Position numbers and translations under genes: made by a program. Shown piece by piece: positions 2,672 to 63,665 of a stretch of 64,000 nucleotides of DNA. The notes under the pieces were generated by a model. It searched no databases and had not been told where the DNA came from. It was given only the letters and a program-made list of their open reading frames with translations. This DNA comes from Phanerodontia chrysosporium (taxonomy: Eukaryota; Basidiomycota; Agaricomycetes; Polyporales; Phanerochaetaceae). The DNA is taken from the NCBI GenBank assembly GCA_001910725.1, contig MJGA01000028.1:124001-188000 (forward strand), given 5' to 3'. Positions within the stretch are counted from its first letter, which is position 1. Each line of letters begins with the position of its first letter.

Positions 2672-4267
<1,596 letters not shown>

Positions 4268-19159: not shown

Positions 19160-19166
19160 TATAAAA
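19160..19166 (+). promoter_or_regulatory. TATA box of LiP2
   Basis: TATAAAA followed by GGG, 77 bp before the LiP2 ATG. The same GTATAAAAGGG string precedes LiP3 and LiP4. Confidence 0.8.
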
Positions 19167-19236
19167 GGGATACGCGATTTGCAGCATATCCTCAGGACAT
19201 TCGTCTTCTACAGCCCAAGTTCCAAGTCAAACGGTC

Positions 19237-20931
<1,695 letters not shown>

Positions 20932-23670: not shown

Positions 23671-23744
23671 GTCCGCTGTGTTGCTGGTGCTGAGTGGGAC
23701 TGAAGAGACTGGATGTCTGAGGGACTGCGGTGGTCCTGTCGCCC

Positions 23745-28934: not shown

Positions 28935-31900
28935 TCAGTCGCGGCGATGAGACGTGAAGACATTTCGAACCTTTTCTGTACTCGAAACTGAGCCGCCCTT
29001 TTCCATCTCGGACATCGACTCCCCCTCCGCAATGGTAGACAATGACCCGCGACGCTGCTCGAGGACGCGCGCGGGCCAACCGGCATAGACGGCCCCACTT
29101 TCGGCGATGTCGCCGGACGGCAGAAGCGCATGCTCGAGCAGCATGCTGTACTCCTCCATCTGCGCACCTGAGAGCAGGCGGGACCCGGTACGGAGCGCAC
29201 ACCCTTCCGCAATGTGGAGCCGATTGAGAGCGAACTTGCCGCGGGAGTTGATGTGCGCGACGACGGAGCAGTCGTCGAGCGTGACACGGTCTCCAAGCGT
29301 GACGAGGTCCGGCTCCGTCATGAGGCCTGGGCGGCCGCCAGCCCAGATGGCGCAATTCGACCCAATCTTGGCACCGAGCGCGCGGTAAAACCAGACGATG
29401 TACGCAGAGCCTGTAATGGGTCCGAGCACACCGCCATTGCCGTGGCCGCGATATAGAAGACGTGACAACGTAAGGTGAAGCTGCCACCGTTGGCCTGCAG
29501 GGTGTGTGATGAGAGCTATGTGATAGACAACATGGACAGATGACTCACAATACGACGAAGTATCCCATGCACAGCTGCCTTCCTTGCGCCTGCCGATGAC
29601 GATCCATTTTGTGACGATCACCCAGGCGAGGGCGATGAGCGACTGCACGAAGAGAAGAAGAACGAACGCGCAGGCGATGAGTCCGTACATCGTCGCTGGT
29701 CGGTACCATGTCGCGGCAAAGAGATTCAAACGCGAGAGATGGATCTGGAACTGGCGAAGGATCTGTGCAGCGGCGACAGCCGGAATACTCCAGTAGGCAG
29801 CGGAACCAGCCGATATGAGGAGGTTGATGACGAGCAGGAGAGAGTACGGGTAGACGAAGTAGGTGGCCTCGCGTCTGTAGAAGGCTTTGCCGAAGGGCGT
29901 GATCGTGTCTTCGTCGAACTCGACACCGAGACCCTTCGAGAGCATAGCCGCCTCACCGCCGTCGTTGCCCAACCAAGTTGAGCCGTCCTCGTACACGCCG
30001 CCGCGCTTGCCCAGGGCACCCGAACCCATGACCGTGCGCTTGCCGACGCGTGAACCAGGAAGCAGCACCACGCGGTCTGCTATCATAGCACCACGACCGA
30101 TGGTTATCTTGGCAGATCCGATGCTGTCCGTGGTGAAGAGCTCAGAGCGGGAGCCAAACACGACGTCGTCGCCGATCTCGAGTAGCTCTGGATCCGGGCA
30201 GTAGATGCCAGACCCCGGCCAGTACACGCGCTTGCCGACCTTCGCACCCATTGCGCGGAATACCCACTACACGGACGGTCAGCGATGTGCTGATGGGAAG
30301 CATTGTTATAACTCACCGATGTAGCCTCATAATGGGTGCCAAAGACATCGAAAGCGTGTTTGAGCGTATGCTGCGAGAGAAGGATACCGTTGATGTACCG
30401 CCGGAGAAGCACCCACTCGCTCCACTCCTCCGCAGGGCCTTCTTTGTTGAGGCCCATGAGGCGCTTGACGATGATGCCGAAGAAGGTTTGAACGACAGGC
30501 GTCGCGACGACACGCAGGATACGTGCGAGGGCATGAAAGGCGATTCGGGTCGGATTGGCAAACCAGAACACGATGCTCTCGACCGAGTTGAGGTCCGGAC
30601 GAAGGATGGCGGTAGAGCTGACCATGCCGTAGATTGCCGCGAGCCAGGGAAGGTAAGCCACGAAAAGAACCAGGAAGATGACGGGGAAGGCGACGAACAG
30701 CCGCAAGAGCAACCTGGGCTTGCGGAACGTGGCTCGGTTGTACTTGACAAACTCCGGCGGCGACGGATGCTCGTGCGAGGACGCGTGGGGACCCCACACA
30801 GTGCCGGCTTCGATGGTTGCACCGGGCGCAATCTGCGTGTAAGTGTTGATGTGGGCGTCCTTGCCGATGATAATGGGCGCGAGACGGAAGAACCCATCTC
30901 GCTCGACGCAGAAACCGCGCACGAGTGCTTTGTCAATCTTGCACCCGTCGTGGAAGGTGAGCAGGTCGAACTCGCCGAGCGCAGCGGTCTGCGAAATTTG
31001 GCAGTTCTTGCCTACTTTGGCACCCATCAGGCGGCAGTAGAGATGGACACCTTTCGGGTGAATAGCGAAGATCCCACGGCCGGCCTGGCGGATGTATGCG
31101 TTGACTATCCACCAACGCAGGTGATAATTACTCCACCTACACGACAGTCAGATAGGATCACGGAACACCATGTGTAAAACTTACATGCGATACACGCCAG
31201 GTTTGTACCTGCCGATGACGACCCACTTGAGGACGATCGCTGAAACGGGGCAAATAATGCGAGAAGTCAACCGCGCAAGGGTGATCGCCGTCAGAAGGGC
31301 GACGGCGCGCGTCCAGAAGTCATGGTCCAAATAGTCGGCGAGGAACGCGAGAAAGACGAGAATGACAGACCCTGAGTACAGATGAGCAAGACGCCAGATT
31401 CAAAACCGGAGAGATACTCACAGTTCCACGCGGCCTTGAGCGGATAGAAGAACAAAATGGGAATAGCCTGCACCAGCAGGGAGAGCGGGTGCGTCTGGCT
31501 GCGCATCGGCTCAACGCTGGGCGTGTACTGGAAGCGCGCCGCGAAGTCGCCGCTGTCGTTCGGGCTGTCGGGCATCCAGTCGCCACGCGCCGAGGCGATG
31601 TGCATCGCTTTGTTGCACTCGTCGTCGATGAGCGCCGCGATGCCGCTGATCGTACTATGGTTGAAGAGGTCGGCGACACGAAGGGCAACACCTGTCTCCT
31701 TGCGGAGCGCGTACGCAAGGCGGCCGAGGAGCAGCGAGTTGCCGCCGAGGAGGAAGAAGTCGGTGTCGCCGGCGACGCGTGCAGGGTCCTTGCCGAGGAG
31801 ATCGCACACGACGTCGCGCACAACGAGCGCGCGAGGAGACATGGCCGCCGCGTTCTCTTGAGCGATGATGGCGGCGAGGGCGTTGAAGTCGATGGCGCCG

Positions 31901-34116
31901 TGCGTACGCGGAAGAGGCTTGTCGAAGACATGGATCTCCGTCGGCACGGCGTAGCCCGGCAACACTTCCTCGAGCGCGGACTTGAGGAAGCCGCTGTCCA
32001 CGCGAGCTTCGGTGCCGTACACGAACGCCTCAATGGTGCCATCCTCTTGTGTCCGCACGGCAACCTCTGCCACACCCTTTGATTGCGCCAAAGCAGCCTC
32101 CGTCTGAGTGACGTCGAACTCGCACTGCTTCGACAGGATCGGGGTCGAGAGAGGGACGTTCTTGTCTGGAGCGGTAGCTTCCCAGTGGCGCTGACGCGGG
32201 AACCACGCGTCGGTAGCCATACCGAGTCCGAGGCGCGAGCCAAGCTTGATACGGAGGGGCTTGCCTGCCTGGTTCTTCGGCAAGTCGTCCATGTAGACGA
32301 TGAGGAATGGCCATTTCGACGGGTGAAGCTGCTCCTTGAGAAGGTCCTGCAGCTGAGCGAGGCCGATGCGCGGGAGGTTAGACTGGGGAACGATGACGAC
32401 GCCGATCGCCTCCTGGAGAACATCGTGGTCGACGCTGAAGGCGATCGTCATCTTGACGCGCTCCTTCGCAACGACGAGAATGGCTTCTTCAATCTCGAAA
32501 GGCGAGATGACCTCGCCACCGCGGTTGATGATCTCCTTGCTGCGGCCGGTGATGAAGAGGTAACCGTCTTCGTCCATGTACCCGCAGTCTCCCGAATCAA
32601 ACCAGCCCTCGCTCGAGAACGCAGAGGTGTCGAGGGGAACACTACGGTCCGTCGTCGTCTCATAGCCGGTGAAGGTGGGCAATCCGCGCACAGAGACTGC
32701 GCCAGTCTGTCCGCGCGGCAGCTCGCGCTCCAGGTTCATTGGGTCGCGAATCGACAGGTACGGACCACACGCAATGCCCGAGCAGCCAGGCCTCTCGAGC
32801 TGGTAGGTCGTGGGTGGACTGGCGATTGGCATGCATTCCTTCGTCGGGTGTCAAATAACGGTCCGGAAAGAGAGCAGGGAGCAACTCACTGTCGAGCCGT
32901 AGGATGGCAGAATCACGGCACCAAATGTGCGCTTGAGCTCTTCCGCAAGCACCGGCAACAGGCCACCAGCCGCGTTACAAATCAGCCGGTATTTCGTATC
33001 CCGTGAAGGAACGATAGAATCCGGACGTGAGTTGAGGATGGCTTGGTGCATGGTCGGCGCGGCATAATACCTGGGATTTGTGAGGACGGGCACCCAATTG
33101 ATAAACATTTGAAACTCACCAAGTAGAACCGAGCTTCGTCGACAAAGACCAGAAGGCGGTAGCGTCAAAGCCTGCGCACATGATTGCACTTCCTCCGGAG
33201 AGCATTGGTGCGAAGAGGTTGCGGACGATGCCACCGACGTGGAAGAGAGGCATCATGTTCACTGAGGCACGAAGTCAGAACAAGGCAAGATCACAAGTGA
33301 CAGATACTCACTGTTGACGTCCACCTCCTTCAAATCCCAAGAGATAATGACAGCACATGTACCGATTATAAGCGACCGCAACGAATAAGGGACGACCTTC
33401 TTCTTTCCGCTGGTGCCAGACGTGTGCAGCACCAAGCTAAGGTCATCGAGGCCGTGAAGTCGGCTCGGTCTTGCAGCAGCGAGGAGAGCGGCGATGGAGG
33501 CGCGCTTCTGCGAGCTGACGGTCGACCGCCGCCGGCTGGCGCCGCTCATCCGTCGACTCGACATCGAGAGGCGGTTCTGCGCGGGCATGAGCTCCATGTC
33601 AAAGAGGCCGGTCGGGCCGTCGTCGCGTGGGTGCATGAAGATGATGTCGCAGCCGAGGTGCGCCTGCAGGCTGCGCAGCTCGAGGCGCTCCTCCGCGTCG
33701 GGGGTCGTGAAGACAGCGCGTGCGCCAAGGCGCTCGGCGTCCTCGAGCAGCTCGGCTGCCGTGCACGTCGCGTTCACCGGCGCCGCGGTGTGGTAGCACG
33801 CGAGAGCGAGCAGGGCGACCGCGTTCTCTGGGGTCGTCGGGAGCGCGACCATGACGCGGTCGTTCGGGCCCAGCCGCTTCGCGGGCGAGGAACATGGAAG
33901 GGCGAAGGAGGTGATGAATTCGTGGATCTCAGCGTGGGTGACTGGCTCGCGGGTGTCGTCGGGAGAGTACAGAGCGGGTCTGTCTGTGGTGGGAATGCAG
34001 TCGAGAAAGGTCTCCACCCGTCCGGCGTCGGTGACATGCGCTGCGACGTGGTCGCCGAGAGAGAGGCCTTCTGGCGGCGGGGGAAGGGAGGTCACGAATT
34101 CTAGAGGGATGGTCAT
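28935..34116 (-). CDS. NRPS-like A-T enzyme with Pls/PosA-type membrane and beta-helix terminal domains
   Basis: Large multi-exon gene, roughly 1,500 residues. Adenylation domain: VLHTSGTSGKKKVVP (A3), PLFHVGGIVRNLF (A4), PSYGSTE (A5), GWFDSGDCG and FITGRSKEIINRGGE (A7-A8), PKNQAGKPLR (A10). Carrier domain: DFFLLGGNSLLLGRL with the phosphopantetheine Ser. Then alternating hydrophobic segments and three left-handed beta-helix (hexapeptide) blocks starting MGAKVGKNCQI (31027), MGAKVGKRVYW (30251) and LGAKIGSNCAIW (about 29370). This A-T-TM-repeat plan is that of epsilon-poly-lysine synthetase (Pls) and the related PosA family. Core A4 has the FHxGG of acyl/aryl-CoA ligases and no NRPS-type Asp, so an amino-acid substrate is not assured. 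No tailoring genes flank it. Confidence 0.85.
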
Positions 34117-36605: not shown

Positions 36606-37034
36606 GACTTCGAGGCACTTACTGAACCGCTTTCAGTCGTGCCAAGGGCAATCACGCCGGACCACGAGCAAGCACGGGATGGTGCTCATCCAGCGAGCGA
36701 CGCCGCAACTTCTTCTGCCAAGACAGTCGGTTGCCAAGAGCGATCCCTCTACCTCGGGACATGCTTCTCAGGAATGTCTCAACTTTCGTCCGTCGACCTC
36801 GCCGCCGCATTCACTTGCAGTGCCTGCATGACCCCTGCGCGTCGACGCTGCAGGCCCAAACTGGAGCAGAGTCGCTGATGTCGCCGGTGCCGCACAATAA
36901 TGGCTCACAGGCTCTGATTTTGCAGCACGCTCATTCGCTGAGGGCTTCCGTCTTTCGACTTTACAGGCCCATTGAATGTTGACGCGACGGGCATGCCAAG
37001 CCAGGTCCTGGCCGCTCGCTGTGCGCGACGTGCG

Positions 37035-37041
37035 TATAAAA
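37035..37041 (+). promoter_or_regulatory. TATA box of LiP4
   Basis: TATAAAA followed by GGG, 77 bp before the ATG. Confidence 0.8.
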
Positions 37042-37111
37042 GGGACGATGCGATAGCCAGTATTCTTCAGACACCCAGTCTCTCCTACAGCACCAGTCAG
37101 CCGAACCGGAC

Positions 37112-38656
<1,545 letters not shown>

Positions 38657-47225: not shown

Positions 47226-47328
47226 AGGGAGCGTTTGATATACAACACGCCGACTACGGCGAGCTCGTACTTTGTGGCCAAGGATTGGCAAAGGTCGACT
47301 TTCTCCCCGTTCTCGAGCCCCTGCATCC
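47226..47328 (+). pseudogene. Candidate exon interrupted by the palindromic element (left part)
   Basis: After a good acceptor (TAACTTACCTTCCAG) the frame reads GAFDIQHADYGELVLCGQGL and is open to the element edge. Continued in the right flank at 63666, counting the 8-bp duplication once, it stays open to TAG at 63751-63753. A second frame is also open across the join, so the coding assignment is tentative. Confidence 0.35.
47321..47328. repeat. 8-bp target-site duplication, left copy
   Basis: CTGCATCC directly abuts the left end of the palindrome; the identical octamer abuts its right end at 63658-63665. Confidence 0.8.
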
Positions 47329-47329
47329 T

Positions 47330-48105
47330 ACGGTAGGCGGGAAGGCCATGGATGAAATCACGAACTGATGGCTACCAAGCGCTCGGCACGCGCGTGGGCG
47401 CTTCCGGTGCACCTCTCCCGCCTCCCGCTCTCAGATCATCTGTACGAGTGTTTGTATATACTGAGTCATTCTGCATTTATATGACCATCTGCCATGGGGT
47501 GGTATAGGCTGAGTGACCACTCGATTGTTCGAGGTCGATAGACGCTGATTTGACAGACCCGATACCAAGCGCCCCTCGGGAGACCTGCAGGCCGGTGACC
47601 TCCCCAGTTTGGTTGACTGAGCGTCTGTTATCATCAGATATGCTGGAAATATATCCACGTGTGCTTACCGCTCGGATTTGGGCGATGTGCAAGCGTGACT
47701 TCCAAATTCGGTCAGTATCCCTTGGCTTCGTCCGTCGCCTGTGTCCAGCGTCCCGCCTCTCACCCCCGTTGTCGATGCCGTCCCCAACGTCCACGTATTC
47801 CCAAGGCAAGGCACCGCATTCAAGGGCGGGCTATCCCACGAGGTGTCGATGTGCCTCCATCTGTGCAACGTGGACTTTCCCCGAGCCAGGAACGGCGGCG
47901 GCGGCGCGTTGACGGTGAATAGGAACCTGCGCACCGGGTGTCTCATTGGCAAAGGAAGACTTAACAAAAGTACGTGATAGTCAACTAAGGTGCAAGCGAG
48001 TATAAAATAAGGGCCTGCTTGCCGTCCTCTCAGCCGTTCTCCGCCTTCTCTTCCATTGCCTACGGCTGCCACGCCAAACCACATTCCTTTCCCTCGCATC
48101 CTACG
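47330..48105. other. Left-arm subterminal region
   Basis: About 0.8 kb between the terminus and the accessory gene, with overlapping open frames on both strands (for example 47741-47977 on +). No frame can be preferred. The mirror region is 62881-63656. Confidence 0.4.
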
Positions 48106-49195
48106 ATGAGTCTCGCAACCGCTCCCAGACAGTTTGCCCCCATCCGCCTAGCTGGCTCCGTGGATTCTTGCGGACACCTCCCCTTCAATAGGGCTGTTCG
48201 ACTCGGAGTTGCAGACGGGCATATTCCCGAGTTCAAGGGTGGGCGATTGATTTCTTGGCAATGGTATGTACGCATTCCTTCGTCTTCTACAGCTAACTGA
48301 ATCGACAGGCCCATACGTCCATGCGGACTCCCCGGCAAATTTGAGCGCGTCCCGCCAGATCAGTTGTTGGAGCATCGAAACGGCCACGAGTTCTCTGCGC
48401 CGGGCTGCCTCTGTGCTCAAGACTTGGACCAGCCTGCTTTCACCGAATCCAAGATCTTTTTTCTCAAGCTGACTGGTGATCGACACGTCGGTCAGTGGAT
48501 CGCTGCTTGCGCACGCGGGCACTGCAAGTATTGGGGTAAGTCTCACCTTATACGCCAGGAGCCCAACCAGTCTAATCCTCACACGCAGTAACCCTCGAGA
48601 AGGGCTACACCTCCCGCAACTGTTTGGTCCATCACTACCCACTCAAAGGTAAGTGTGGGCTTTGCTGTTGCATCTATCAACGCTCTAACTCACGCGGCAG
48701 CAGTTGCGCAGCACGATGACGAGCCCGTGGATATTATCTCAGGGGAGCAGTTCTCGTCCCCCTTATCCTCGCCTAGTGCCACTCCCAAACGTATGTCTCT
48801 AGACGTCTGTGGTCATCGCGGGGCTGATCATACCTACTCAGGCAAGCGTTTCTCCTCGGCGACCTTGTCCACACCCCGGAAGCGTAGCCGTCTGGCGGGA
48901 GGTACAGGTAGGTATATATCTTGTCGCAAATTTTGTAGCTCACTGTTGTGCAGTTTCAATTGGTGATGAAGACGTCGAGACGGAGATCTCGGACTTCCGC
49001 AAGCTCTTGAAGCTGGATGATCACCGCGCCCCCGGCTTGTCCTTGGCCGAATTCAAGAGGCTGTTTCGTCTTTGCAACTGGGGTCTCGTCATGACTGTCA
49101 GTGCGCACAGCATCCGCCATGAGTGTCCTGGCAAGGACACCATCGACCTGACCATCGACATCCGGGACACGGTTCAGCTCATCCGTGGTGCTTGA
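48106..49195 (+). CDS. Element accessory gene, left copy
   Basis: Six exons (48106-48263, 48309-48535, 48589-48648, 48704-48790, 48842-48907, 48954-49195) join in frame to 279 residues. The N-terminal third has several Cys and His residues (SCGHLPFN, PGCLCAQD, WIAACARGHCKYW) that could bind zinc in the manner of a GRF-like finger, though I cannot confirm this. The middle is Ser/Pro-rich with a basic TPRKRSRL that could be a nuclear signal. The C-terminal part is acidic and ends in a predicted strand-rich segment (DTIDLTIDIRDTVQLI). Intact in both arms, which suggests selection or recent amplification. Role unknown; DNA-binding partner of the transposase is one possibility. Confidence 0.65.
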
Positions 49196-49283
49196 GCACA
49201 GTTCTAATTATTTCTTGATTGCATTCTAGCATATGATCTGTTGTGATAATTTGCCAATATACACCCCACTCATTTAACGAGAC

Positions 49284-49800
49284 TCGACAGTTGCTGCCCT
49301 GTGGTGCCATTGCAATTTGGCCAGGTGTCATTCTCCATCCAGCGGCGGAGTGATGAGGCTTGTACGTGTAGTTACTTGATGATGATAACAACTTTCAACA
49401 TGTCGATGTCCAGCCGACGTCTAACACTCCACGGAAGCTGTCTGGCCAAACATGTCGTTCTTTGGAAAGGAGGGCAAGGTAACAATAGTTAATGTAGGAA
49501 CCGTCGAATTCAATGACACTGCGCAACCTGATCATGATAACGGCGCGAGAATCTTCTATGCTGAGCATGTTGAAGGCCTCCACGCAGCTGTTCGAATAGG
49601 TGCGCGTGAAGTCTACACCGTGACCTTCGGCAGTCACATTGACGATCTCCTTTCAACGAAAGACACCGCTTATGACGCTCTCGGAACACCATGTAGTAGA
49701 ACATGTTGAGAATCGTCTGCGTGGCGGACTCACTGATAGACTGTGCAGCCAGAGCACCGCACATCTTGCTGGGATGAGTGAGCGACTGGGATTGGTTGAA
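49284..49800 (-). pseudogene. RPB1 (RNA polymerase II largest subunit) fragment, left copy
   Basis: Minus-strand frames contain FNQSQSLTHPSKMCGALAAQ with SISESATQTILNMF, matching the FNQS...[25 protein letters not shown] segment of RPB1. A second frame has NSCVEAFNMLSIEDSRAV and VIEFDGSYINYCYLALL, matching the conserved segment roughly 300 residues later. In the same frame, after a stop, TPGQIAMAPQGSN matches LGQxAPxGTG. Internal deletions, a frame change and a stop show it is not functional. It reads as a host gene piece captured by the element. Confidence 0.8.
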
Positions 49801-49918
49801 CGTCGACCAGACTACACTGAGCACTCAAGGAAAATAGATTAAGACACCCGGTATATTTTATCTTTACTGAGAGCGGAGGCGTAGTGGATTTCGGCACATT
49901 AGGATGTGTAAATCGACG

Positions 49919-50450
49919 CTGGGTGAGCGGCGCGAACACTGACTGCGGTGTGAGGTACACGGGGTCCGCGGAATCTGGGGTCCCGAAACGGCGTCGACAC
50001 TGCATGGTGCGCAGCTCGCGTCTTGCTCATGCCTCTGCAACACTCCCTCCTCTGCACTTACATTGTTGTCATGAGCGACGTCTCTGGCACAAACGCCCCC
50101 TGAATCTCTGCTGAGCCTGCTGCCGCAAGAGTGCCATCCCTCCGAAAGACGACGAGGCTTTGTGTTGAGCGAGAGAGTGCAGCGGATGGTTTCGGATACG
50201 GTACGACACTAGCTCATTGAGGTCTCCAGGATGGGGGGAGTTCTTACATGCTAAGAGTCAGGTCCTCTGGGTTGTGCTTGAGCAGGCGCATCCGGTTGTT
50301 GCTCAGCTGCGTGACAACTCGTGCAGCCACCTCAAACCCGGTCGTGTACACATCCACAAAGCGCAGCCAGTGTGATGACAGACAGAGCATGCAGCTCAAG
50401 ACGCTGGTCCTCGTGGTGTATAGACTCATGGGGGTCGTTGTTACTTCCAT
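49919..50450 (-). CDS. Unassigned open frames in the left arm
   Basis: Minus-strand frame with FEVAARVVTQLSNNRMRLLK followed by plausible GT-AG joins to PKPSAALSRSTQSLVVF and beyond. Splice structure is uncertain (the first intron would be only 39 nt). A base difference turns a Gln codon in one downstream frame of this arm into a stop in the right arm. No family recognised. Confidence 0.3.
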
Positions 50451-50786
50451 TTCTGTACATGTCCATTCTCAATGGCAGTCTTCCATGCTCACCGTTCCTA
50501 TAGCCGTCGTGCTCCATGTAGTCTTATCATCTGCGGCTACAGGTGCTCACTTTACATGCGCACAATACTCTATTGGTCTCACTCATATTTGTGCGCCATG
50601 TCCATGCCCACATCGATACCAAGCACGGCACCCCCGCGGCAGTTAGTCTTTTGCCGATAGCATCCCTTCCTTGACCAAGGGCCCTATGGGTGAGATCGCC
50701 CTGTGCGTAAGTAGTGTCTCTGCAACTTCAGTATACCTCACTGCTTCTCTGTAGGCCGCTACTGAATCAGCTACCACTATGGCTGG

Positions 50787-50990
50787 GTGCTTCCTCGCCC
50801 GGTTGATGACGCGATGCCACCAGCGACACCCCCCAACGGCACGACTGTGCTAACCGTGCGTGGCTTGTACTTCACCACCAGCTGGGATGCTGTGCGCCTT
50901 CTCAAGTGCAACGGCTTGAACAGGCGTGTGATCAAAGCGAAGAACTATTGCCCGGGTAAATTCTGGCGCTGCTATTATGTCGTGGAGTAG
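50787..50990 (+). CDS. Small unassigned ORF, left arm
   Basis: 67 codons ending RCYYVVE at TAG, preceded by a possible intron (GTAAGTAG...CTCTGTAG, about 50700-50757) that would attach upstream sequence. It lies tail to tail with the transposase-like gene. No domain seen. The mirror copy is 59999-60202 on the minus strand. Confidence 0.3.
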   Translation: MLPRPVDDAMPPATPPNGTTVLTVRGLYFTTSWDAVRLLKCNGLNRRVIKAKNYCPGKFWRCYYVVE

Positions 50991-51035
50991 GTTGCCTGAC
51001 ATTCGTAACCTCGTGTATATATCCTATCTAATCTA

Positions 51036-54000
51036 TCACCCCCTCATACACGAACCCTCGATGAAACGCGGGAGCACAATAGTTGCTTTCCCGGAGCCCT
51101 TCCCAACCAGAGACGCACTCTTCTGTAGTGCCTTGTTATGAGCAGTCTCTGCGTTACAGACTTTGGTCCTAAGGCGCTGCAACTGGTCAGGAGTCAAAGA
51201 CATGCCGTCGTGTTCTCGTCCTTGCAAAGCTTTCGTTAGCTTTGAGCGAGCACGCTCGAGTGCCGAGAGCGTTTTCGTGACTTTGGTATTTGCCTCGCCG
51301 ATATTGTTGTCTGCTGTCATATATCGCTTACGACGAGCACGCTCTATTAGAATAAATTATCAATACACCGCCTATGTGAAATAAAAAAGCGAACACACGC
51401 TGAAGCTTGAGGGCGCGAAGGGCTTTGTCTGTATGTGAGCGGAACTTATACAACATGTCTACACCTGCTTCCTCATACATCTGAGGCCATCAGTTAGGTC
51501 GTCATAAAGGTAGAGCTCGTGAATTACATACCTTAACTGATTGAAGCTTCATGCGGTCAAGATGCTGTCCACGCACAATACCGCCCACCAGGCTACAGCC
51601 AACTCCCTCTCGATTGGCGTCTGCATGTAGAGCCTCAATCATGTTGCTATGGGGCTCTCCTGCTTGCCATATCTCATACGGTATCGCGCTTTTTGCCCAG
51701 CACATTCCCTCGAAAGCGAATTTACTTTTGATCTTGTCCTGTACCCAATCTAGGTGTGTATTTCCTCGTTAGCAGGGGCATCAGTCGGAATGAGAGACAG
51801 GCGCACCGTGAGCTGCCTTCCCCCCCATGTGGCATATCTGTAGTAGTGTCCCGTCCCAATCGTCGTGTTCCATACAAACCAGACTGCGCATAAGACGTTT
51901 AACATCATCGGAAACAGCACAGGTCTTGATATTGCGGTAGATGTGGACCGTGCAGAGTCGGAAGATGCGATGGAGATGTTCGTACGGAGTCAGGTCCACT
52001 AGCACCCGGCTCGGTTCATGTAGGTCATGCTTCGTGCGGTCGGTTCGCTTGCGGGAGACATCCTGCAAGTACAGACCAAGTCCTGAGTGTGTTTCAAATC
52101 CATAAGTACATCCCTTCCCTAGATCTTGTATGCGTACCCTTTGCCTGTCCAAGATGCTGGTCGGCACCAAAGTGCAAGATGCCGACATGGTCTTCGAGCG
52201 AGGATGAGTCAATGTGCCGCCATTGCAGGTTCGAAGCTGTATCCTGCTTGACTATCTCGTCGATTTTATGGAAGATGAAGCGGTGGATTGCAGCCGTCTC
52301 GCGGGTGAGGAGGATACGGCAGAATACGATACCTGGATCATGCGTGAGAGTTGAGTTGGCAGAATACAAAAAAGGAAACTTGGCCGTACAGGTTTTGTTG
52401 TCACGATCGACACCTGCGAGCTCGAACTCCTTCCAACCAGACACCCGCTTGAATGCTATGTCACTCTGGAGATATTGAGCCCTACGCAACCGACAGCTCT
52501 GGTCTCTTGACATACAAAGCACTATACGGACATTGGACCGATTCAAGTCATTCTCGGAGTCATTCTCGTCACTCGGTGAGCAATCTAGGAGTAGCTCACT
52601 GTATGTCACTTCCGCTGCGTAACGTATGTATAGCTCTCCATGTGAAGCACTTCCTGTATCCTGCAAGTGCTTCAGACGCAAGAGACCTAATAATCAAGTC
52701 AATTGTGAACTATCTCATCTCCGAGTCAAGCAGCGAGCGTACCCTCCCAGCCTGTACCATGCGGAAACTCCTTCTCCTTCACCACCTTGATGAACGAGCG
52801 TAGGTGGTCTTTGTTTGCAAGAGACGTGTGTAGATCACTTAACGTGGGGTGTGTGATGCTAGGAAGCAGCTGCCGAAGGCGGGCTTGTGTGAGGCTATGC
52901 CGGAGAAGTCTGCGAGGCGTCATATCCGCGAGGTCATGTCCTATGTCATGCAATAGTTCAAGGAGCTGGCCGCGGACATGGGGCAGAGTTTTCGTTGGTA
53001 AAGGGATCGGGTGCGTGTGTTTTCCGTGGCAGACGAGAAGCACGTATGGACAGACATGCCTGTATTCAGGAAGTGGCTCATACGATTGTAGCTTGCTGTT
53101 GCAGCGAAGTCGAACCATTTCAACAAGTGTGAGTTGCCCTTTATCGTTACAATGCTCATGTGCTGCCAACAGACGTAGCCAATCCACCATCATCAGCTCA
53201 GAGATTGGACAGTAGCAAAGTAAACAGGCTTACGACAATGCACACGGTTTGACGACACATTCACTACGGTTGTGCAAGATGCTCTCGGCCCATACCCATC
53301 TTCTTCAGCTAGCCTCTCCATGGCGTCCACCATTTGTTGGTCATGCAAGAAGACCGCCTCTATGTAGTCGAAATCGTACGAGCCATTGCCGACCGTGTAA
53401 TCAAGTAAGTGTTCACGGTTTCGGGCACTGTAATACTCGCAGCTGACAAGTTGGAGACTAAGCACGAGAAGATAAGACATTGAATGTCACGCACTGAATG
53501 TATGGCTCGCCGTCGTAGTCGTACGAGAGCATGAGACGGCCTGGGCAGTGCTCTGCTGGTGAGCATGGTTCATATCCCCGCCTTGCCTTTCTGATGGCCG
53601 CCGTCCATGCTGCCTGCTCATTCTCATCACCGTCACCAAGGCCTTCGCCCACTCGCTCTGTTGGTGGCACTGCCGTACCATGGATAGCAGCGGCGCTACA
53701 TCTGAGCTTGCGGAGTGCTGCGATTTTTCCGATTGTCCGCTCAAAGACGACACGGCTGGGTGAGTCACCATCCTCGCGGGCCTCACGTTCACCTATTAAC
53801 CGAGCCTTGAGCTCCTCTCGAGATGCGGAGACATGGGACGAGTGAAGAATGGCGTCTCCTGTGTTTGGACACGCCTTCATTCCTTGACCTAAGGTCAGTG
53901 TCATCAGTCATTTACAACGGTTCATGTACAATGGCAAGACATACATGTAGAGTGGCGCTCTCGGCAAGGTACCATCTGCCCCGTCTTCTCGTCGCGTAGC

Positions 54001-54806
54001 AGCATGCAATGCACAGGCTTCCCTTGCGCAGATGCTCCATGTGGTGCACCTTGTGCATATGCTACGCTGTCGGCCGGGTTAATCCAGTTGTCTGGATCGA
54101 GCTTGATGAGGTGGCCAATCCGTCCTGTGCAGCTTGTCTGCGGGTAATCCAGCACAGTGTTTAGCAGGTGCCGAAACAGTTGCTCTAGCCAGAAACTGCG
54201 GGTATACTGCACAGCGCTTTCGGGAGCAGAGACTGTGGGATCAGACTCGGCGGAAAGCGAGGAGAGTGCGCGAGTGGGTATGGTGGCTGGTGGAGGTTGA
54301 GACATGGAGTGTCGATCTTCAAAGTAGCCGAGCAAGGCAGCGATTGCATGGTGAACAGCGCGCGGGACAGTGATGGGGCTGTCACCACGCGGGATGGCAT
54401 GCCGCAACTGCTCAAGCTCCTCGCGAGCATCGATGGTCTCGTATGCAGATGAGGACCGTGTCGACGCTGGAGTTGTGACTGTACTGTGCGACGTTGATGG
54501 CGTCGCGGTAAGTCTACTCAAGTGTCGGGAACGCGGCGTTTGAGTTGTACAGGGGAGCACCGAGTCTGTCGCTGGTGCCACCGTAGTCATGAATGGATTC
54601 TCAGGGTCGTCATGGGTGAATACATTGTGTGTATCACGCTGCAGAGCAGGATTGGAGGCCTCAAAGATGCGGTTGTCAGTTGGCGTGGTGTCGGTGCCAT
54701 GTAGAACGCGCAGGGCACTGGTGTCTGAGTTGCCAAACCTGCGCTGGCGTGGTGTCGATGGTGTGACAGGTGCGGCTGGGTTCAGAAGCTGCGAGAGTGG
54801 TAGCAT
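51036..54806 (-). CDS. Transposase-like protein, left (intact) copy
   Basis: About nine exons and roughly 1,100 residues, from MLPLSQLLNPA at 54806 to the stop at 51036; an in-frame Met lies 20 codons upstream (54866). The N-terminal 280 residues are Ser/Thr/Pro-rich and disordered. A C..C cluster (CRERHSTCQGMKAC) and a zinc-like segment CPYVLLVCHGKHTHP resemble the WRKY-GCM1/FLYWCH type fingers found in MULE-like and related transposases. The core holds SLEDHVGILHFGADQHLGQA, then GLYLQDV, and IPYEIWQAGEPHSNMIEALH, with Asp and Glu residues suitable for a DDE/D site (inference). The C-terminus has heptad-like Leu/Lys/Ala helices. Superfamily not assigned. Confidence 0.65.
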
Positions 54807-55442
54807 AATAGAAGCTGTGGTAGAGATCGGACACTTCAGCGGAGGGTGTTCAGGCAGTGTATACACTATCTGGAAGCTGTCATCTAGTGTGCTCTGAGGG
54901 GCCTCGGTGCTCTACAACGTTGCTGCCCTTCCCTCGCCAAGGCCCCCTCTCTCCGACTCCATCGCAGTGGTGAAACCCTTTTTTCATGTTGTTTGCACCC
55001 TCATTTAGTCTCTGATGACTGCGAGGCAGTCCAACGCAGCGTGGTATCAACTTGAGCAGCGCTGCTATCCAATCCCGGCCCTTCTTCACACTTCCTCTCC
55101 CCAAAGGTCCGATGTTTTCGTGCATCTGCAGAGCAGTATAGTAGTTCCTGATGCCGTGCCTCACTGTTCGCTCATGATAAACCCGCCGGACAGCTCTCAT
55201 TGGCTAGCGGCGGTGTTCAAACCGGGCAACGGCGTACTAGCCTCGAACAACAGCAGTTACCATTATGGGCGTGTGACAGCCAAGGGAGACCCTTCCTTCC
55301 CGACCAACAACCCCAGGCTAAGGTTTATAGAAATGCACCCAAAGCGTTGCTCGATAGTCGCTCGCCGGAGGTCGGATGCCCCGGGATGCACGATTGATGG
55401 GCCCTGCGCGCCAATCAAGCTCGAGCAATCGAGCGTATACTC

Positions 55443-55550
55443 TGGTTTGCAATTGCTGAAGACAGGCTGCAAAAGCGGACACAGGCGCCAATCTGTGTGC
55501 AATAAGCGCCCGTCTGGTCGCAGCCCCGATCTTGGAATTTGAGCCTATAC
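55443..55550. other. Unique centre (108 bp) of the palindrome
   Basis: The only non-repeated part of the element. Both arms stop at GAGTATAC read outward from the centre, and the last bases of the centre on the right (CCTATAC) repeat TATAC next to the arm, a possible trace of a template switch. No ORF of its own. Confidence 0.85.
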
Positions 55551-56185
55551 GAGTATACGCTCGATTGCTCGAGCTTGATTGGCGCGCAGGGCCCATCAAT
55601 CGTGCATCCCGGGGCATCCGACCTCCGGCGAGCGACTATCGAGCAACGCTTTGGGTGCATTTCTATAAACCTTAGCCTGGGGTTGTTGGTCGGGAAGGAA
55701 GGGTCTCCCTTGGCTGTCACACGCCCATAATGGTAACTGCTGTTGTTCGAGGCTAGTACGCCGTTGCCCGGTTTGAACACCGCCGCTAGCCAATGAGAGC
55801 TGTCCGGCGGGTTTCCATGAGCGAACAGTGAGGCACGGCATCAGGAACTACTATACTGCTCTGCAGATGCACGAAAACATCGGACCTTTGGGGAGAGGAA
55901 GTGTGAAGAAGGGCCGGGATTGAATAGCAGCGCTGCTCAAGTTGATACCACGCTGCGTTGGACTGCCTCGCAGTCATCAGAGACTAAATGAGGGTGCAAA
56001 CAACATGAAAAAAGGGTTTCACCACTGCGATGGAGTCGGAGAGAGGGGGCCTTGGCGAGGGAAGGGCAGCAACGTTGTAGAGCACCGAGGCCCCTCAGAG
56101 CACACTAGATGACAGCTTCCAGATAGTGTATACACTGCCTGAACACCCTCCGCTGAAGTGTCCGATCTCTACCACAGCTTCTATT

Positions 56186-59100
56186 ATGCTACCACTCTCG
56201 CAGCTTCTGAACCCAGCCGCACCTGTCACACCATCGACACCACGCCAGCGCAGGTTTGGCAACTCAGACACCAGTGCCCTGCGCGTTCTACATGGCACCG
56301 ACACCACGCCAACTGACAACCGCATCTTTGAGGCCTCCAATCCTGCTCTGCAGCGTGATACACACAATGTATTCACCCATGACGACCCTGAGAATCCATT
56401 CATGACTACGGTGGCACCAGCGACAGACTCGGTGCTCCCCTGTACAACTCAAACGCCGCGTTCCCGACACTTGAGTAGACTTACCGCGACGCCATCAACG
56501 TCGCACAGTACAGTCACAACTCCAGCGTCGACACGGTCCTCATCTGCATACGAGACCATCGATGCTCGCGAGGAGCTTGAGCAGTTGCGGCATGCCATCC
56601 CGCGTGGTGACAGCCCCATCACTGTCCCGCGCGCTGTTCACCATGCAATCGCTGCCTTGCTCGGCTACTTTGAAGATCGACACTCCATGTCTCAACCTCC
56701 ACCAGCCACCATACCCACTCGCGCACTCTCCTCGCTTTCCGCCGAGTCTGATCCCACAGTCTCTGCTCCCGAAAGCGCTGTGCAGTATACCCGCAGTTTC
56801 TGGCTAGAGCAACTGTTTCGGCACCCGCTAAACACTGTGCTGGATTACCCGCAGACAAGCTGCACAGGACGGATTGGCCACCTCATCAAGCTCGATCCAG
56901 ACAACTGGATTAACCCGGCCGACAGCGTAGCATATGCACAAGGTGCACCACATGGAGCATCTGCGCAAGGGAAGCCTGTGCATTGCATGCTGCTACGCGA
57001 CGAGAAGACGGGGCAGATGGTACCTTGCCGAGAGCGCCACTCTACATGTATGTCTTGCCATTGTACATGAACCGTTGTAAATGACTGATGACACTGACCT
57101 TAGGTCAAGGAATGAAGGCGTGTCCAAACACAGGAGACGCCATTCTTCACTCGTCCCATGTCTCCGCATCTCGAGAGGAGCTCAAGGCTCGGTTAATAGG
57201 TGAACGTGAGGCCCGCGAGGATGGTGACTCACCCAGCCGTGTCGTCTTTGAGCGGACAATCGGAAAAATCGCAGCACTCCGCAAGCTCAGATGTAGCGCC
57301 GCTGCTATCCATGGTACGGCAGTGCCACCAACAGAGCGAGTGGGCGAAGGCCTTGGTGACGGTGATGAGAATGAGCAGGCAGCATGGACGGCGGCCATCA
57401 GAAAGGCAAGGCGGGGATATGAACCATGCTCACCAGCAGAGCACTGCCCAGGCCGTCTCATGCTCTCGTACGACTACGACGGCGAGCCATACATTCAGTG
57501 CGTGACATTCAATGTCTTATCTTCTCGTGCTTAGTCTCCAACTTGTCAGCTGCGAGTATTACAGTGCCCGAAACCGTGAACACTTACTTGATTACACGGT
57601 CGGCAATGGCTCGTACGATTTCGACTACATAGAGGCGGTCTTCTTGCATGACCAACAAATGGTGGACGCCATGGAGAGGCTAGCTGAAGAAGATGGGTAT
57701 GGGCCGAGAGCATCTTGCACAACCGTAGTGAATGTGTCGTCAAACCGTGTGCATTGTCGTAAGCCTGTTTACTTTGCTACTGTCCAATCTCTGAGCTGAT
57801 GATGGTGGATTGGCTACGTCTGTTGGCAGCACATGAGCATTGTAACGATAAAGGGCAACTCACACTTGTTGAAATGGTTCGACTTCGCTGCAACAGCAAG
57901 CTACAATCGTATGAGCCACTTCCTGAATACAGGCATGTCTGTCCATACGTGCTTCTCGTCTGCCACGGAAAACACACGCACCCGATCCCTTTACCAACGA
58001 AAACTCTGCCCATGTCCGCGGCCAGCTCCTTGAACTATTGCATGACATAGGACATGACCTCGCGGATATGACGCCTCGCAGACTTCTCCGGCATAGCCTC
58101 ACACAAGCCCGCCTTCGGCAGCTGCTTCCTAGCATCACACACCCCACGTTAAGTGATCTACACACGTCTCTTGCAAACAAAGACCACCTACGCTCGTTCA
58201 TCAAGGTGGTGAAGGAGAAGGAGTTTCCGCATGGTACAGGCTGGGAGGGTACGCTCGCTGCTTGACTCGGAGATGAGATAGTTCACAATTGACTTGATTA
58301 TTAGGTCTCTTGCGTCTGAAGCACTTGCAGGATACAGGAAGTGCTTCACATGGAGAGCTATACATACGTTACGCAGCGGAAGTGACATACAGTGAGCTAC
58401 TCCTAGATTGCTCACCGAGTGACGAGAATGACTCCGAGAATGACTTGAATCGGTCCAATGTCCGTATAGTGCTTTGTATGTCAAGAGACCAGAGCTGTCG
58501 GTTGCGTAGGGCTCAATATCCCAGAGTGACATAGCATTCAAGCGGGTGTCTGGTTGGAAGGAGTTCGAGCTCGCAGGTGTCGATCGTGACAACAAAACCT
58601 GTACGGCCAAGTTTCCTTTTTTGTATTCTGCCAACTCAACTCTCACGCATGATCCAGGTATCGTATTCTGCCGTATCCTCCTCACCCGCGAGACGGCTGC
58701 AATCCACCGCTTCATCTTCCATAAAATCGACGAGATAGTCAAGCAGGATACAGCTTCGAACCTGCAATGGCGGCACATTGACTCATCCTCGCTCGAAGAC
58801 CATGTCGGCATCTTGCACTTTGGTGCCGACCAGCATCTTGGACAGGCAAAGGGTACGCATACAAGATCTAGGGAAGGGATGTACTTATGGATTTGAAACA
58901 CACTCAGGACTTGGTCTGTACTTGCAGGATGTCTCCCGCAAGCGAACCGACCGCACGAAGCATGACCTACATGAACCGAGCCGGGTGCTAGTGGACCTGA
59001 CTCCGTACGAACATCTCCATCGCATCTTCCGACTCTGCACGGTCCACATCTACCGCAATATCAAGACCTGTGCTGTTTCCGATGATGTTAAACGTCTTAT

Positions 59101-59953
59101 GCGCAGTCTGGTTTGTATGGAACACGACGATTGGGACGGGACACTACTACAGATATGCCACATGGGGGGAAGGCAGCTCACGGTGCGCCTGTCTCTCATT
59201 CCGACTGATGCCCCTGCTAACGAGGAAATACACACCTAGATTGGGTACAGGACAAGATCAAAAGTAAATTCGCTTTCGAGGGAATGTGCTGGGCAAAAAG
59301 CGCGATACCGTATGAGATATGGCAAGCAGGAGAGCCCCATAGCAACATGATTGAGGCTCTACATGCAGACGCCAATCGAGAGGGAGTTGGCTGTAGCCTG
59401 GTGGGCGGTATTGTGCGTGGACAGCATCTTGACCGCATGAAGCTTCAATCAGTTAAGGTATGTAATTCACGAGCTCTACCTTTATGACGACCTAACTGAT
59501 GGCCTCAGATGTATGAGGAAGCAGGTGTAGACATGTTGTATAAGTTCCGCTCACATACAGACAAAGCCCTTCGCGCCCTCAAGCTTCAGCGTGTGTTCGC
59601 TTTTTTATTTCACATAGGCGGTGTATTGATAATTTATTCTAATAGAGCGTGCTCGTCGTAAGCGATATATGACAGCAGACAACAATATCGGCGAGGCAAA
59701 TACCAAAGTCACGAAAACGCTCTCGGCACTCGAGCGTGCTCGCTCAAAGCTAACGAAAGCTTTGCAAGGACGAGAACACGACGGCATGTCTTTGACTCCT
59801 GACCAGTTGCAGCGCCTTAGGACCAAAGTCTGTAACGCAGAGACTGCTCATAACAAGGCACTACAGAAGAGTGCGTCTCTGGTTGGGAAGGGCTCCGGGA
59901 AAGCAACTATTGTGCTCCCGCGTTTCATCGAGGGTTCGTGTATGAGGGGGTGA
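56186..59953 (+). pseudogene. Transposase-like protein, right copy with three frameshifts
   Basis: Same gene as the left copy. Single-base losses at 58009-58011 (CCC for CCCC, just after the HTHP finger), near 58525 (ATCCCAG for ATCTCCAG) and near 59164 (six G for seven) break the frame. There is one substitution giving Pro for Leu before NTVLDYPQ. Two of the three losses are in homopolymers. Either the copy is inactive or the assembly of this arm is less accurate. Confidence 0.65.
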
Positions 59954-59998
59954 TAGATTAGATAGGATATATACACGAGGTTACGAATGTCAGGCAAC

Positions 59999-60202
59999 CT
60001 ACTCCACGACATAATAGCAGCGCCAGAATTTACCCGGGCAATAGTTCTTCGCTTTGATCACACGCCTGTTCAAGCCGTTGCACTTGAGAAGGCGCACAGC
60101 ATCCCAGCTGGTGGTGAAGTACAAGCCACGCACGGTTAGCACAGTCGTGCCGTTGGGGGGTGTCGCTGGTGGCATCGCGTCATCAACCGGGCGAGGAAGC
60201 AC
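59999..60202 (-). CDS. Small unassigned ORF, right arm
   Basis: Mirror of 50787-50990, identical over the frame. Function not recognised. Confidence 0.3.
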   Translation of the reverse strand: MLPRPVDDAMPPATPPNGTTVLTVRGLYFTTSWDAVRLLKCNGLNRRVIKAKNYCPGKFWRCYYVVE

Positions 60203-60538
60203 CCAGCCATAGTGGTAGCTGATTCAGTAGCGGCCTACAGAGAAGCAGTGAGGTATACTGAAGTTGCAGAGACACTACTTACGCACAGGGCGATCTCACC
60301 CATAGGGCCCTTGGTCAAGGAAGGGATGCTATCGGCAAAAGACTAACTGCCGCGGGGGTGCCGTGCTTGGTATCGATGTGGGCATGGACATGGCGCACAA
60401 ATATGAGTGAGACCAATAGAGTATTGTGCGCATGTAAAGTGAGCACCTGTAGCCGCAGATGATAAGACTACATGGAGCACGACGGCTATAGGAACGGTGA
60501 GCATGGAAGACTGCCATTGAGAATGGACATGTACAGAA

Positions 60539-61070
60539 ATGGAAGTAACAACGACCCCCATGAGTCTATACACCACGAGGACCAGCGTCTTGAGCTGCAT
60601 GCTCTGTCTGTCATCACACTGGCTGCGCTTTGTGGATGTGTACACGACCGGGTTTGAGGTGGCTGCACGAGTTGTCACGCAGCTGAGCAACAACCGGATG
60701 CGCCTGCTCAAGCACAACCCAGAGGACCTGACTCTTAGCATGTAAGAACTCCCCCCATCCTGGAGACCTCAATGAGCTAGTGTCGTACCGTATCCGAAAC
60801 CATCCGCTGCACTCTCTCGCTCAACACAAAGCCTCGTCGTCTTTCGGAGGGATGGCACTCTTGCGGCAGCAGGCTCAGCAGAGATTCAGGGGGCGTTTGT
60901 GCCAGAGACGTCGCTCATGACAACAATGTAAGTGCAGAGGAGGGAGTGTTGCAGAGGCATGAGCAAGACGCGAGCTGCGCACCATGCAGTGTCGACGCCG
61001 TTTCGGGACCCCAGATTCCGCGGACCCCGTGTACCTCACACCGCAGTCAGTGTTCGCGCCGCTCACCTAG
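60539..61070 (+). CDS. Unassigned open frames in the right arm
   Basis: Mirror of 49919-50450. The difference at 61068-61070 creates a TAG in one frame where the left arm has a Gln codon. Same uncertainty about splicing. Confidence 0.3.
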
Positions 61071-61188
61071 CGTCGATTTACACATCCTAATGTGCCGAAA
61101 TCCACTACGCCTCCGCTCTCAGTAAAGATAAAATATACCGGGTGTCTTAATCTATTTTCCTTGAGTGCTCAGTGTAGTCTGGTCGACG

Positions 61189-61705
61189 TTCAACCAATCC
61201 CAGTCGCTCACTCATCCCAGCAAGATGTGCGGTGCTCTGGCTGCACAGTCTATCAGTGAGTCCGCCACGCAGACGATTCTCAACATGTTCTACTACATGG
61301 TGTTCCGAGAGCGTCATAAGCGGTGTCTTTCGTTGAAAGGAGATCGTCAATGTGACTGCCGAAGGTCACGGTGTAGACTTCACGCGCACCTATTCGAACA
61401 GCTGCGTGGAGGCCTTCAACATGCTCAGCATAGAAGATTCTCGCGCCGTTATCATGATCAGGTTGCGCAGTGTCATTGAATTCGACGGTTCCTACATTAA
61501 CTATTGTTACCTTGCCCTCCTTTCCAAAGAACGACATGTTTGGCCAGACAGCTTCCGTGGAGTGTTAGACGTCGGCTGGACATCGACATGTTGAAAGTTG
61601 TTATCATCATCAAGTAACTACACGTACAAGCCTCATCACTCCGCCGCTGGATGGAGAATGACACCTGGCCAAATTGCAATGGCACCACAGGGCAGCAACT
61701 GTCGA
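61189..61705 (+). pseudogene. RPB1 fragment, right copy
   Basis: Same order of segments as the left copy, on the + strand: FNQS...MCGALAAQSISESATQ, then KEIVNV, then the VIEFDGSYINY segment, a TGA at 61592-61594, and TPGQIAMAPQGSN. About 220 residues of RPB1 between the first and second blocks are missing. Confidence 0.8.
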
Positions 61706-61793
61706 GTCTCGTTAAATGAGTGGGGTGTATATTGGCAAATTATCACAACAGATCATATGCTAGAATGCAATCAAGAAATAATTAGAACTGTGC

Positions 61794-62880
61794 TCAAGCA
61801 CCACGGATGAGCTGAACCGTGTCCCGGATGTCGATGGTCAGGTCGATGGTGTCCTTGCCAGGACACTCATGGCGGATGCTGTGCGCACTGACAGTCATGA
61901 CGAGACCCCAGTTGCAAAGACGAAACAGCCTCTTGAATTCGGCCAAGGACAAGCCGGGGGCGCGGTGATCATCCAGCTTCAAGAGCTTGCGGAAGTCCGA
62001 GATCTCCGTCTCGACGTCTTCATCACCAATTGAAACTGCACAACAGTGAGCTACAAAATTTGCGACAAGATATATACCTACCTGTACCTCCCGCCAGACG
62101 GCTACGCTTCCGGGGTGTGGACAAGGTCGCCGAGGAGAAACGCTTGCCTGAGTAGGTATGATCAGCCCCGCGATGACCACAGACGTCTAGAGACATACGT
62201 TTGGGAGTGGCACTAGGCGAGGATAAGGGGGACGAGAACTGCTCCCCTGAGATAATATCCACGGGCTCGTCATCGTGCTGCGCAACTGCTGCCGCGTGAG
62301 TTAGAGCGTTGATAGATGCAACAGCAAAGCCCACACTTACCTTTGAGTGGGTAGTGATGGACCAAACAGTTGCGGGAGGTGTAGCCCTTCTCGAGGGTTA
62401 CTGCGTGTGAGGATTAGACTGGTTGGGCTCCTGGCGTATAAGGTGAGACTTACCCCAATACTTGCAGTGCCCGCGTGCGCAAGCAGCGATCCACTGACCG
62501 ACGTGTCGATCACCAGTCAGCTTGAGAAAGATCTTGGATTCGGTGAAAGCAGGCTGGTCCAAGTCTTGAGCACAGAGGCAGCCCGGCGCAGAGAACTCGT
62601 GGCCGTTTCGATGCTCCAACAACTGATCTGGCGGGACGCGCTCAAATTTGCCGGGGAGTCCGCATGGACGTATGGGCCTGTCGATTCAGTTAGCTGTAGA
62701 AGACGAAGGAATGCGTACATACCATTGCCAAGAAATCAATCGCCCACCCTTGAACTCGGGAATATGCCCGTCTGCAACTCCGAGTCGAACAGCCCTATTG
62801 AAGGGGAGGTGTCCGCAAGAATCCACGGAGCCAGCTAGGCGGATGGGGGCAAACTGTCTGGGAGCGGTTGCGAGACTCAT
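61794..62880 (-). CDS. Element accessory gene, right copy
   Basis: Mirror of 48106-49195 with the same six exons. It differs by loss of one codon (one Phe of the FFLK stretch in exon 2), which keeps the frame, so this copy also encodes a full protein of 278 residues. Confidence 0.65.
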
Positions 62881-63657
62881 CGTAGGATGCGAGGGAAAGG
62901 AATGTGGTTTGGCGTGGCAGCCGTAGGCAATGGAAGAGAAGGCGGAGAACGGCTGAGAGGACGGCAAGCAGGCCCTTATTTTATACTCGCTTGCACCTTA
63001 GTTGACTATCACGTACTTTTGTTAAGTCTTCCTTTGCCAATGAGACACCCGGTGCGCAGGTTCCTATTCACCGTCAACGCGCCGCCGCCGCCGTTCCTGG
63101 CTCGGGGAAAGTCCACGTTGCACAGATGGAGGCACATCGACACCTCGTGGGATAGCCCGCCCTTGAATGCGGTGCCTTGCCTTGGGAATACGTGGACGTT
63201 GGGGACGGCATCGACAACGGGGGTGAGAGGCGGGACGCTGGACACAGGCGACGGACGAAGCCAAGGGATACTGACCGAATTTGGAAGTCACGCTTGCACA
63301 TCGCCCAAATCCGAGCGGTAAGCACACGTGGATATATTTCCAGCATATCTGATGATAACAGACGCTCAGTCAACCAAACTGGGGAGGTCACCGGCCTGCA
63401 GGTCTCCCGAGGGGCGCTTGGTATCGGATCTGTCAAATCAGCGTCTATCGACCTCGAACAATCGAGTGGTCACTCAGCCTATACCACCCCATGGCAGATG
63501 GTCATATAAATGCAGAATGACTCAGTATATACAAACACTCGTACAGATGATCTGAGAGCGGGAGGCGGGAGAGGTGCACCGGAAGCGCCCACGCGCGTGC
63601 CGAGCGCTTGGTAGCCATCAGTTCGTGATTTCATCCATGGCCTTCCCGCCTACCGTA

Positions 63658-63665
63658 CTGCATCC
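63658..63665. repeat. 8-bp target-site duplication, right copy
   Basis: CTGCATCC, identical to 47321-47328 and directly adjacent to the right terminus. Confidence 0.8.

Follow-up and report, generated by a model that had tools for sequence, protein, structure and literature searches.

A 16.3-kb palindrome in Phanerodontia chrysosporium contains two nested transposons, one of them probably doubled by copying between arms

Introduction

How does a genome come to carry a near-perfect mirror image of 16.3 kb with a transposase gene in each arm? The question is raised by a stretch of 64,000 nucleotides from Phanerodontia chrysosporium (GenBank assembly GCA_001910725.1, contig MJGA01000028.1, positions 124,001 to 188,000 of the forward strand), referred to here as the window, in which positions 47329-63657 form a palindrome. 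The original prediction for this locus took the palindrome for a single transposon whose terminal inverted repeats are the whole coding unit, possibly derived from an element that had lost one end. Here we describe a locus built of two transposons, a short element A and a gene-bearing transposon B nested within it. We consider it probable that B inserted once, into the right terminal repeat of A, and was then copied into the left one. Genome searches were performed against the 39.0-Mb assembly of 145 contigs, in which the palindrome-bearing contig is labelled C67, and all match counts are lower bounds.

Results

Alignment of positions 47329-63657 with their own reverse complement gave 99.5% identity from end to end, centre included. 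Two arms of approximately 8.11 kb each are near-perfect mirror images around an asymmetric centre of 108 bp (55443-55550). A full-length mirror around a centre of this size had been predicted, and it is there; the perfection ascribed to it is not, as the two copies of B that make up most of the arms differ by 5 substitutions and 5 indels over approximately 7.93 kb. The outermost 182 bp are identical on both sides (47329-47510 compared with the reverse complement of 63476-63657). Directly outside the two ends lies the same 8-bp sequence, CTGCATCC, at 47321-47328 and at 63658-63665, and we read these as the left and right copies of a target duplication made by element A. Such a duplication at a fixed place is expected by chance about once in 65,000. 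In these respects the earlier description holds: the same sequence stands outside both ends, and an inverted duplication whose two sides end in the same terminus is bounded by an 8-bp duplication made on insertion.

The mirror symmetry ends exactly at the ends of the palindrome, and the 60 bp outside each end show no mirror-image likeness between the two flanks. A search with approximately 1.5 kb of the left flank yielded 3 matches, the query itself and 2 partial ones, and the corresponding search with the right flank yielded 14, the query itself and 13 partial ones; the partial matches had 66-76% identity in both searches. No second full-length copy of either flank was found in the assembly. 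A fold-over error was rejected because the flanks would then be mirrored too, and an 8-bp duplication would not be an expected outcome. The palindrome is thus confirmed as a real feature of the assembly.

Within each arm, only the outer 182 bp belong to element A. When the outer 1.2 kb of the arm was used as a query, 14 places matched: the two arms and 12 shorter stretches. Eight of these 12, covering 162-182 query bases, are the paired ends of four elements 1.1-1.24 kb long (L020 on C107, L021 and L023 on C58, and L022 on C63), whose inverted repeats align over 346-386 bp. The left terminal repeat of A in the window (47329..47510, plus strand, A positions 1-182, TACGGTAGGCGGG...GGTATAGGCT) shares 96-98% identity with the ends of these four two-ended copies; the matches stop at 182, and similarity of the arm to A breaks off at arm position 183. 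The right terminal repeat occupies 63476..63657 on the minus strand (A positions 182-1). All four copies are too short to hold B, and they have only positions 1-182 and the centre in common with the palindrome, so that none of the four bears out the expectation that elements with this terminus would carry the same long coding repeats elsewhere. In both L022 and L023 one end is eroded, and the target duplication of A could therefore be tested in three copies: it measures 8 bp in the window, 8 bp in L021 (GACGGGAG), and 6 bp in L020 (CTCGGC). Element A is small and appears non-autonomous; neither a protein of its own nor an autonomous partner was found.

The centre of the palindrome (55443..55550, minus strand) is also part of A. 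It represents A positions 281 to 174, from the inner stretch of the right terminal repeat, and 107 of its 108 bp agree with the right repeat of L022, where they occupy positions 174-281 counted from the A end; L020, L021, and L023 match it at 81-83 of 85 bp. The centre therefore comes from the repeat of the host element, A, and does not point to the suggested origin from an element that lost one end. Read from left to right, the locus consists of A positions 1-182, B, A positions 281-174 reversed, B reversed, and A positions 182-1 reversed.

The inner 7.93 kb of each arm are a second transposon, B, with its own terminal repeats of 35 bp. The left copy (47511..55442, minus strand, GAGTGACC...GTATACTC) is 7,932 bp long and the right copy (55551..63475, plus strand) 7,925 bp. 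When GAGTGACCACTCGATTGTTCGAG..., which follows arm position 182, was compared with the inner end of the arm in reverse complement, GAGTATACGCTCGATTGCTCGAG..., 26 of 35 positions agreed without gaps (p ~ 1.3e-9). Local alignment of the two 300-bp ends of B, a looser comparison not anchored at the termini, scored 27; shuffled sequences reached at most 29, with a 95% level of 23. It is because they are in register at both termini, not because of their length, that the terminal repeats are convincing. On C120 a diverged relative, 81% identical to B positions 6595-7932, has its end at precisely the same terminus and is truncated by the start of its contig; the shared terminus supports nesting.

The right copy of B is flanked by a perfect 9-bp duplication inside A, AGCCTATAC, at 55542..55550 on the inner side and 63476..63484 on the outer side, so that A positions 174-182 are present twice. 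Beside the left copy the target sequence is present on the outer side only (47502..47510, GTATAGGCT, A positions 174-182), and the inner terminus of B abuts A position 281 directly. The locus thus contains one element inserted in another, each with its own target duplication, a centre that derives from A, and a left copy of B that lacks the inner duplicate. With termini of 182 bp that belong to the short element A, and a coding unit that has its own ends and its own 9-bp duplication, the arms do not represent the terminal repeats of a single transposon.

We found no B transposase in the assembly beyond the two copies in the palindrome. All 3 matches of a search with one transposase exon lay on C67, and so did all 15 matches of a search with the Sparassis homologue P0001, which fell inside the two copies of B. 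The inner 1.15 kb of the arm matched at 3 places, only in the palindrome and on C120. A query with the 7.9-kb DNA of B (3 candidates, 2 scored) missed its own two copies and was not used to estimate copy number. These searches found no other palindrome and no solo 8-kb form in the assembly, the nearest being a 1.33-kb piece of the relative at the start of C120.

Each arm carries a gene set that faces outward, as predicted. A hand-made gene model of the transposase in the left B (51036..54806, minus strand) has 9 exons and 8 GT-AG introns of 51-71 bp, and encodes 1,105 amino acids without an internal stop. Its counterpart in the right B (56186..59953, plus strand) differs from it by three 1-nt deletions, in exons 4, 5, and 6. 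As two of the three are in homopolymer runs, either mutation or faulty polishing may account for them. The transposase genes face away from each other, each starting approximately 0.64 kb from the centre.

Scored over residues 480-1000, a homology search with the B protein returned 270 proteins at E<=0.001. Among the 120 matches listed, nearly all were named "hypothetical protein" and came from genera that we take to be mushrooms; the best was from Sparassis crispa (57%). Residues D704, D804, C855, H858, and E942 were each conserved in all 41 rows of an alignment of B with 40 homologues from the 120 listed. This arrangement of D, D, and E with a CxxH motif is that of Mutator-like DDE enzymes. 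By its residues B would thus carry the triad and motif of Mutator-like elements (MULEs), and it has terminal inverted repeats (26/35); a target duplication within the range of these elements, 8-11 bp and mostly 9, is present at the right copy alone, the left one lacking its inner duplicate.

Searches for a direct match to MULE transposases gave a different picture. A Pfam scan of the B protein found no family at cut-off and no match to MULE (PF10551), and scans of single exons returned nothing over cut-off. PF10551 was found in 0 of 40 homologues scanned, among which nine Pfam families appeared with E up to 0.1, each in a single member. When the B family was compared by hhalign with a profile of 19 relatives (18 of them carrying PF10551) of a PF10551 protein from the same genome, a 53-column piece aligned with a probability of 0.2%; this piece superposes the CxxH motifs of the two families. 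Searches of PDB sequences with the B protein and the family profile gave weak matches only (best E 0.3). Judged by its residues and ends, B probably works like a Mutator-like element; we do not file it as one because B, its 40 homologues, and the hhalign comparison provided no sequence match to MULE transposases.

The outer part of B also holds a degenerate fragment of RPB1, the RNA polymerase II gene. In the left copy (49281..49824, minus strand) it matches Pfam RNA_pol_Rpb1_5 over cut-off (E 7.8e-8) and was found by tblastn (E 3.5e-20); in the right copy it lies at 61165..61708 (plus strand). The fragment has internal gaps and a stop. It aligns in three pieces, at 73-81% DNA identity, with a gene on C13 that has a long open frame and YSPTSP repeats, and these repeats, together with the Pfam match of the fragment in B, suggest that the C13 gene is the host RPB1.

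Several further repeats are related to A or lie beside one of its copies. The cores of L021 and L022, the two compared, are approximately 0.56-0.61 kb long and align piecewise with a separate repeat of approximately 0.84 kb. This small element (CAGCCGTTTGCAAA...) is 0.83-0.84 kb long, has inverted repeats of 85-97 bp, and was found at five loci (L045, L046, L048, L049, and L050), with more partial relatives on C91, C113, C117, C79, and C93. It is approximately 82-87% like the core of A, in pieces, and L045, the copy read, has TA on both flanks. Beside the copy of A on C58, a second long inverted repeat with arms of 334 bp (97.6%) occupies positions 3453-4720 of L023.

The other four of the 12 shorter matches are single A-like ends of 41-54 bp (L024 on C87, L025 on C108, L026 on C62, and L027 on C15). 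Exactly at each of these ends begins a block of up to 4.96 kb, approximately 96% identical between C87 and C108/C62/C15. We take this block to contain a Prp8 gene, a name recognised from the translation rather than by a search; on C87 the block seems to end inside the Prp8-like gene, and may be a captured or duplicated gene fragment. These single-ended termini gave no lead to a transposase of A. C108 has more than 9 kb in common with C62 (99.9% identity) and with C15 (99.6%), pointing to haplotypes left uncollapsed in the assembly or to recent duplications.

Elsewhere in the window, four related copies (2795-4199, 19159-20710, 22190-23692, and 37034-38590) share approximately 74-84% identity in aligned pieces. 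In two of the four an open frame contains the fungal peroxidase extension domain PF11895, and by their sequences the four would form a peroxidase gene cluster with one member inverted. These peroxidase-extension genes and the relatives of the B transposase both mark the host as a mushroom-forming fungus. On the minus strand, 28935-32832 has one frame with an AMP-binding C-terminal domain together with a phosphopantetheine attachment domain, followed by a frame that encodes a hexapeptide-repeat domain, and is possibly part of a gene like those for non-ribosomal peptide synthetases (NRPS). An Rfam scan at gathering scores found tRNA only.

Discussion

That B is nested in A, with both target duplications, a centre derived from A, and no inner duplicate at the left copy of B, is read directly from the sequence. 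The structure of the locus is probably best explained by a single insertion of B followed by copying. A short element A with long inverted terminal repeats sits between the two copies of CTGCATCC. Either before or after this landing, B would have jumped once into the right terminal repeat of A at positions 174-182 and produced the 9-bp duplication. Since the repeats of A are inverted and near-identical, the right one could then serve as template for the left. A break in the left part of A, repaired from the right repeat, would have copied B to the mirror position, by arm-to-arm gene conversion or by synthesis-dependent repair or replication between the repeats. The inner part of the left repeat and the middle of A would have been lost, or the inner repeat never received, which would leave a 108-bp asymmetric centre that starts at the end of B.

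Arm-to-arm copying is the most likely source of the left copy. The transposase was found only in the two copies of B, which makes it unlikely that B landed independently at the mirror site as well. The few differences between the copies mean that the duplication is recent or that the copies have been homogenised. Because the left junction lies exactly at the terminus of B, a second step probably happened there. The transposase may have cut at the inner end of B, or a perfect palindrome may have formed first and then lost part of its centre; perfect palindromes are unstable, and partial loss of the centre is a known fate. Either process could account for the central deletion.

Several points weigh against this account. 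Simple copying that ended at random would not place the left junction exactly at the inner terminus of B, and a second event or a cut is needed. Neither the intermediate, an A with one B, nor an empty site was found in the assembly. The structure is read from the assembly, and since the searches give lower bounds a further copy of B may exist. The order of events is our reconstruction.

A one-step origin was also considered, in which replication would switch template or fold back at the tip of A, a natural hairpin; it resembles the hairpin model of the original prediction, with the difference that the terminal repeats of A act as primer. Arms that mirror each other are what such a step would produce, and the centre ends near the middle of A, approximately 3-4 bp from the start of the match between the core of L022 and the separate small repeat. 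However, the two host flanks are different and unmirrored and the 8-bp duplication is in place, so that copying would have to be confined within the ends of A, and no microhomology was seen by eye at the left junction in comparison with L022. We regard this origin as unlikely.

Two independent insertions of B at the mirror site of the repeats of A, followed by a deletion beside the inner end of the left copy, would also yield the observed order. The repeats of A present the same 9-bp target twice, and a junction exactly at the terminus of B fits an adjacent deletion made by the transposase, as occurs beside Mu in maize. Yet the same base and the mirrored orientation would be required twice, from a transposon whose transposase was found nowhere else in the genome and whose two copies are so little diverged (5 substitutions and 5 indels in 7.93 kb). 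We therefore consider two landings improbable. Replicative intramolecular inversion by B was worked through by hand and rejected: under it one copy should carry a duplication of the new target next to its outer flank, a pattern that the observed 9-bp flanks do not fit.

That the palindrome represents a distinct class of transposon, in which the inverted repeats make up the entire coding unit, we hold to be very improbable: the shared terminus and the 8-bp duplication on both sides are what such an element would show, but the other two-ended elements with this terminus, four in number and 1.1-1.24 kb long, are without B, B has its own ends and 9-bp duplication, and two nested transposons account for the structure with no new class needed. 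An assembly artefact, from reads folded over or a duplicated arm, is hardly credible, for although weak polishing would give coding indels like those of the right copy and near-identical stretches do occur elsewhere in the assembly (C108 compared with C62 and C15), the flanks are unmirrored and have no second full copy, the 8-bp and 9-bp duplications are separate, and the arms differ.

With insertion and copying of B into the repeats of A as the preferred explanation, the locus offers a base-by-base record of how a near-perfect, gene-bearing palindrome with an asymmetric centre may come from two ordinary transposons. For annotation it carries a warning: what look like very long "terminal inverted repeats" can be nested insertions. 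For the B family of transposase-like proteins from mushrooms, most of them "hypothetical protein" among the matches listed, a 9-bp duplication and terminal repeats have now been seen in one member. The composite could possibly be mobile through the intact outer ends of A; no second copy of it was found in the assembly. As a broader proposal, which we make tentatively and regard as doubtful, a transposon lodged in one long inverted repeat could double by arm-to-arm copying without a second transposition, the 16-kb composite could move as a unit, and B could found an undescribed DDE lineage widespread in mushrooms.

Among known systems, B is most readily compared with the MULEs, including the Pack-MULEs. 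CxxH is typical of MULEs, and B resembles them in its 9-bp target duplication, its D-D-E residues, and a CxxH between the second D and the E. The host gene fragment that it carries, from RPB1, is a further likeness to Pack-MULEs. In contrast to MULEs, neither B nor its 40 homologues match the Pfam family, and the hhalign probability is negligible (0.2%). Judged by titles and the starts of abstracts, none of the papers listed on nested insertion with palindrome or repeat conversion, on Mutator-adjacent deletions, or on fungal or mushroom Mutator families describes the palindrome configuration or the B family.

Element A recalls IS3EU of rust fungi, for which the passages compared give termini TAYGG...CCRTA and 6-bp duplications (PMC12730594). 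The ends of A, TACGG...CCGTA, fit this pattern, whereas its duplications are 8 bp in the window copy and L021 and 6 bp in L020 only.

In the literature passages compared, the closest precedent for the extension of repeats is Galileo of Drosophila, whose terminal repeats are lengthened by recruiting internal sequence in inverted orientation (PMC3573991). As in Galileo and Foldback-type elements, according to the same passages, non-repeat DNA has come to lie inverted beside the other repeat and the repeats have been extended, with B now mirrored in both repeats of A. The difference is in what was copied, which here is a complete foreign transposon of 7.9 kb.

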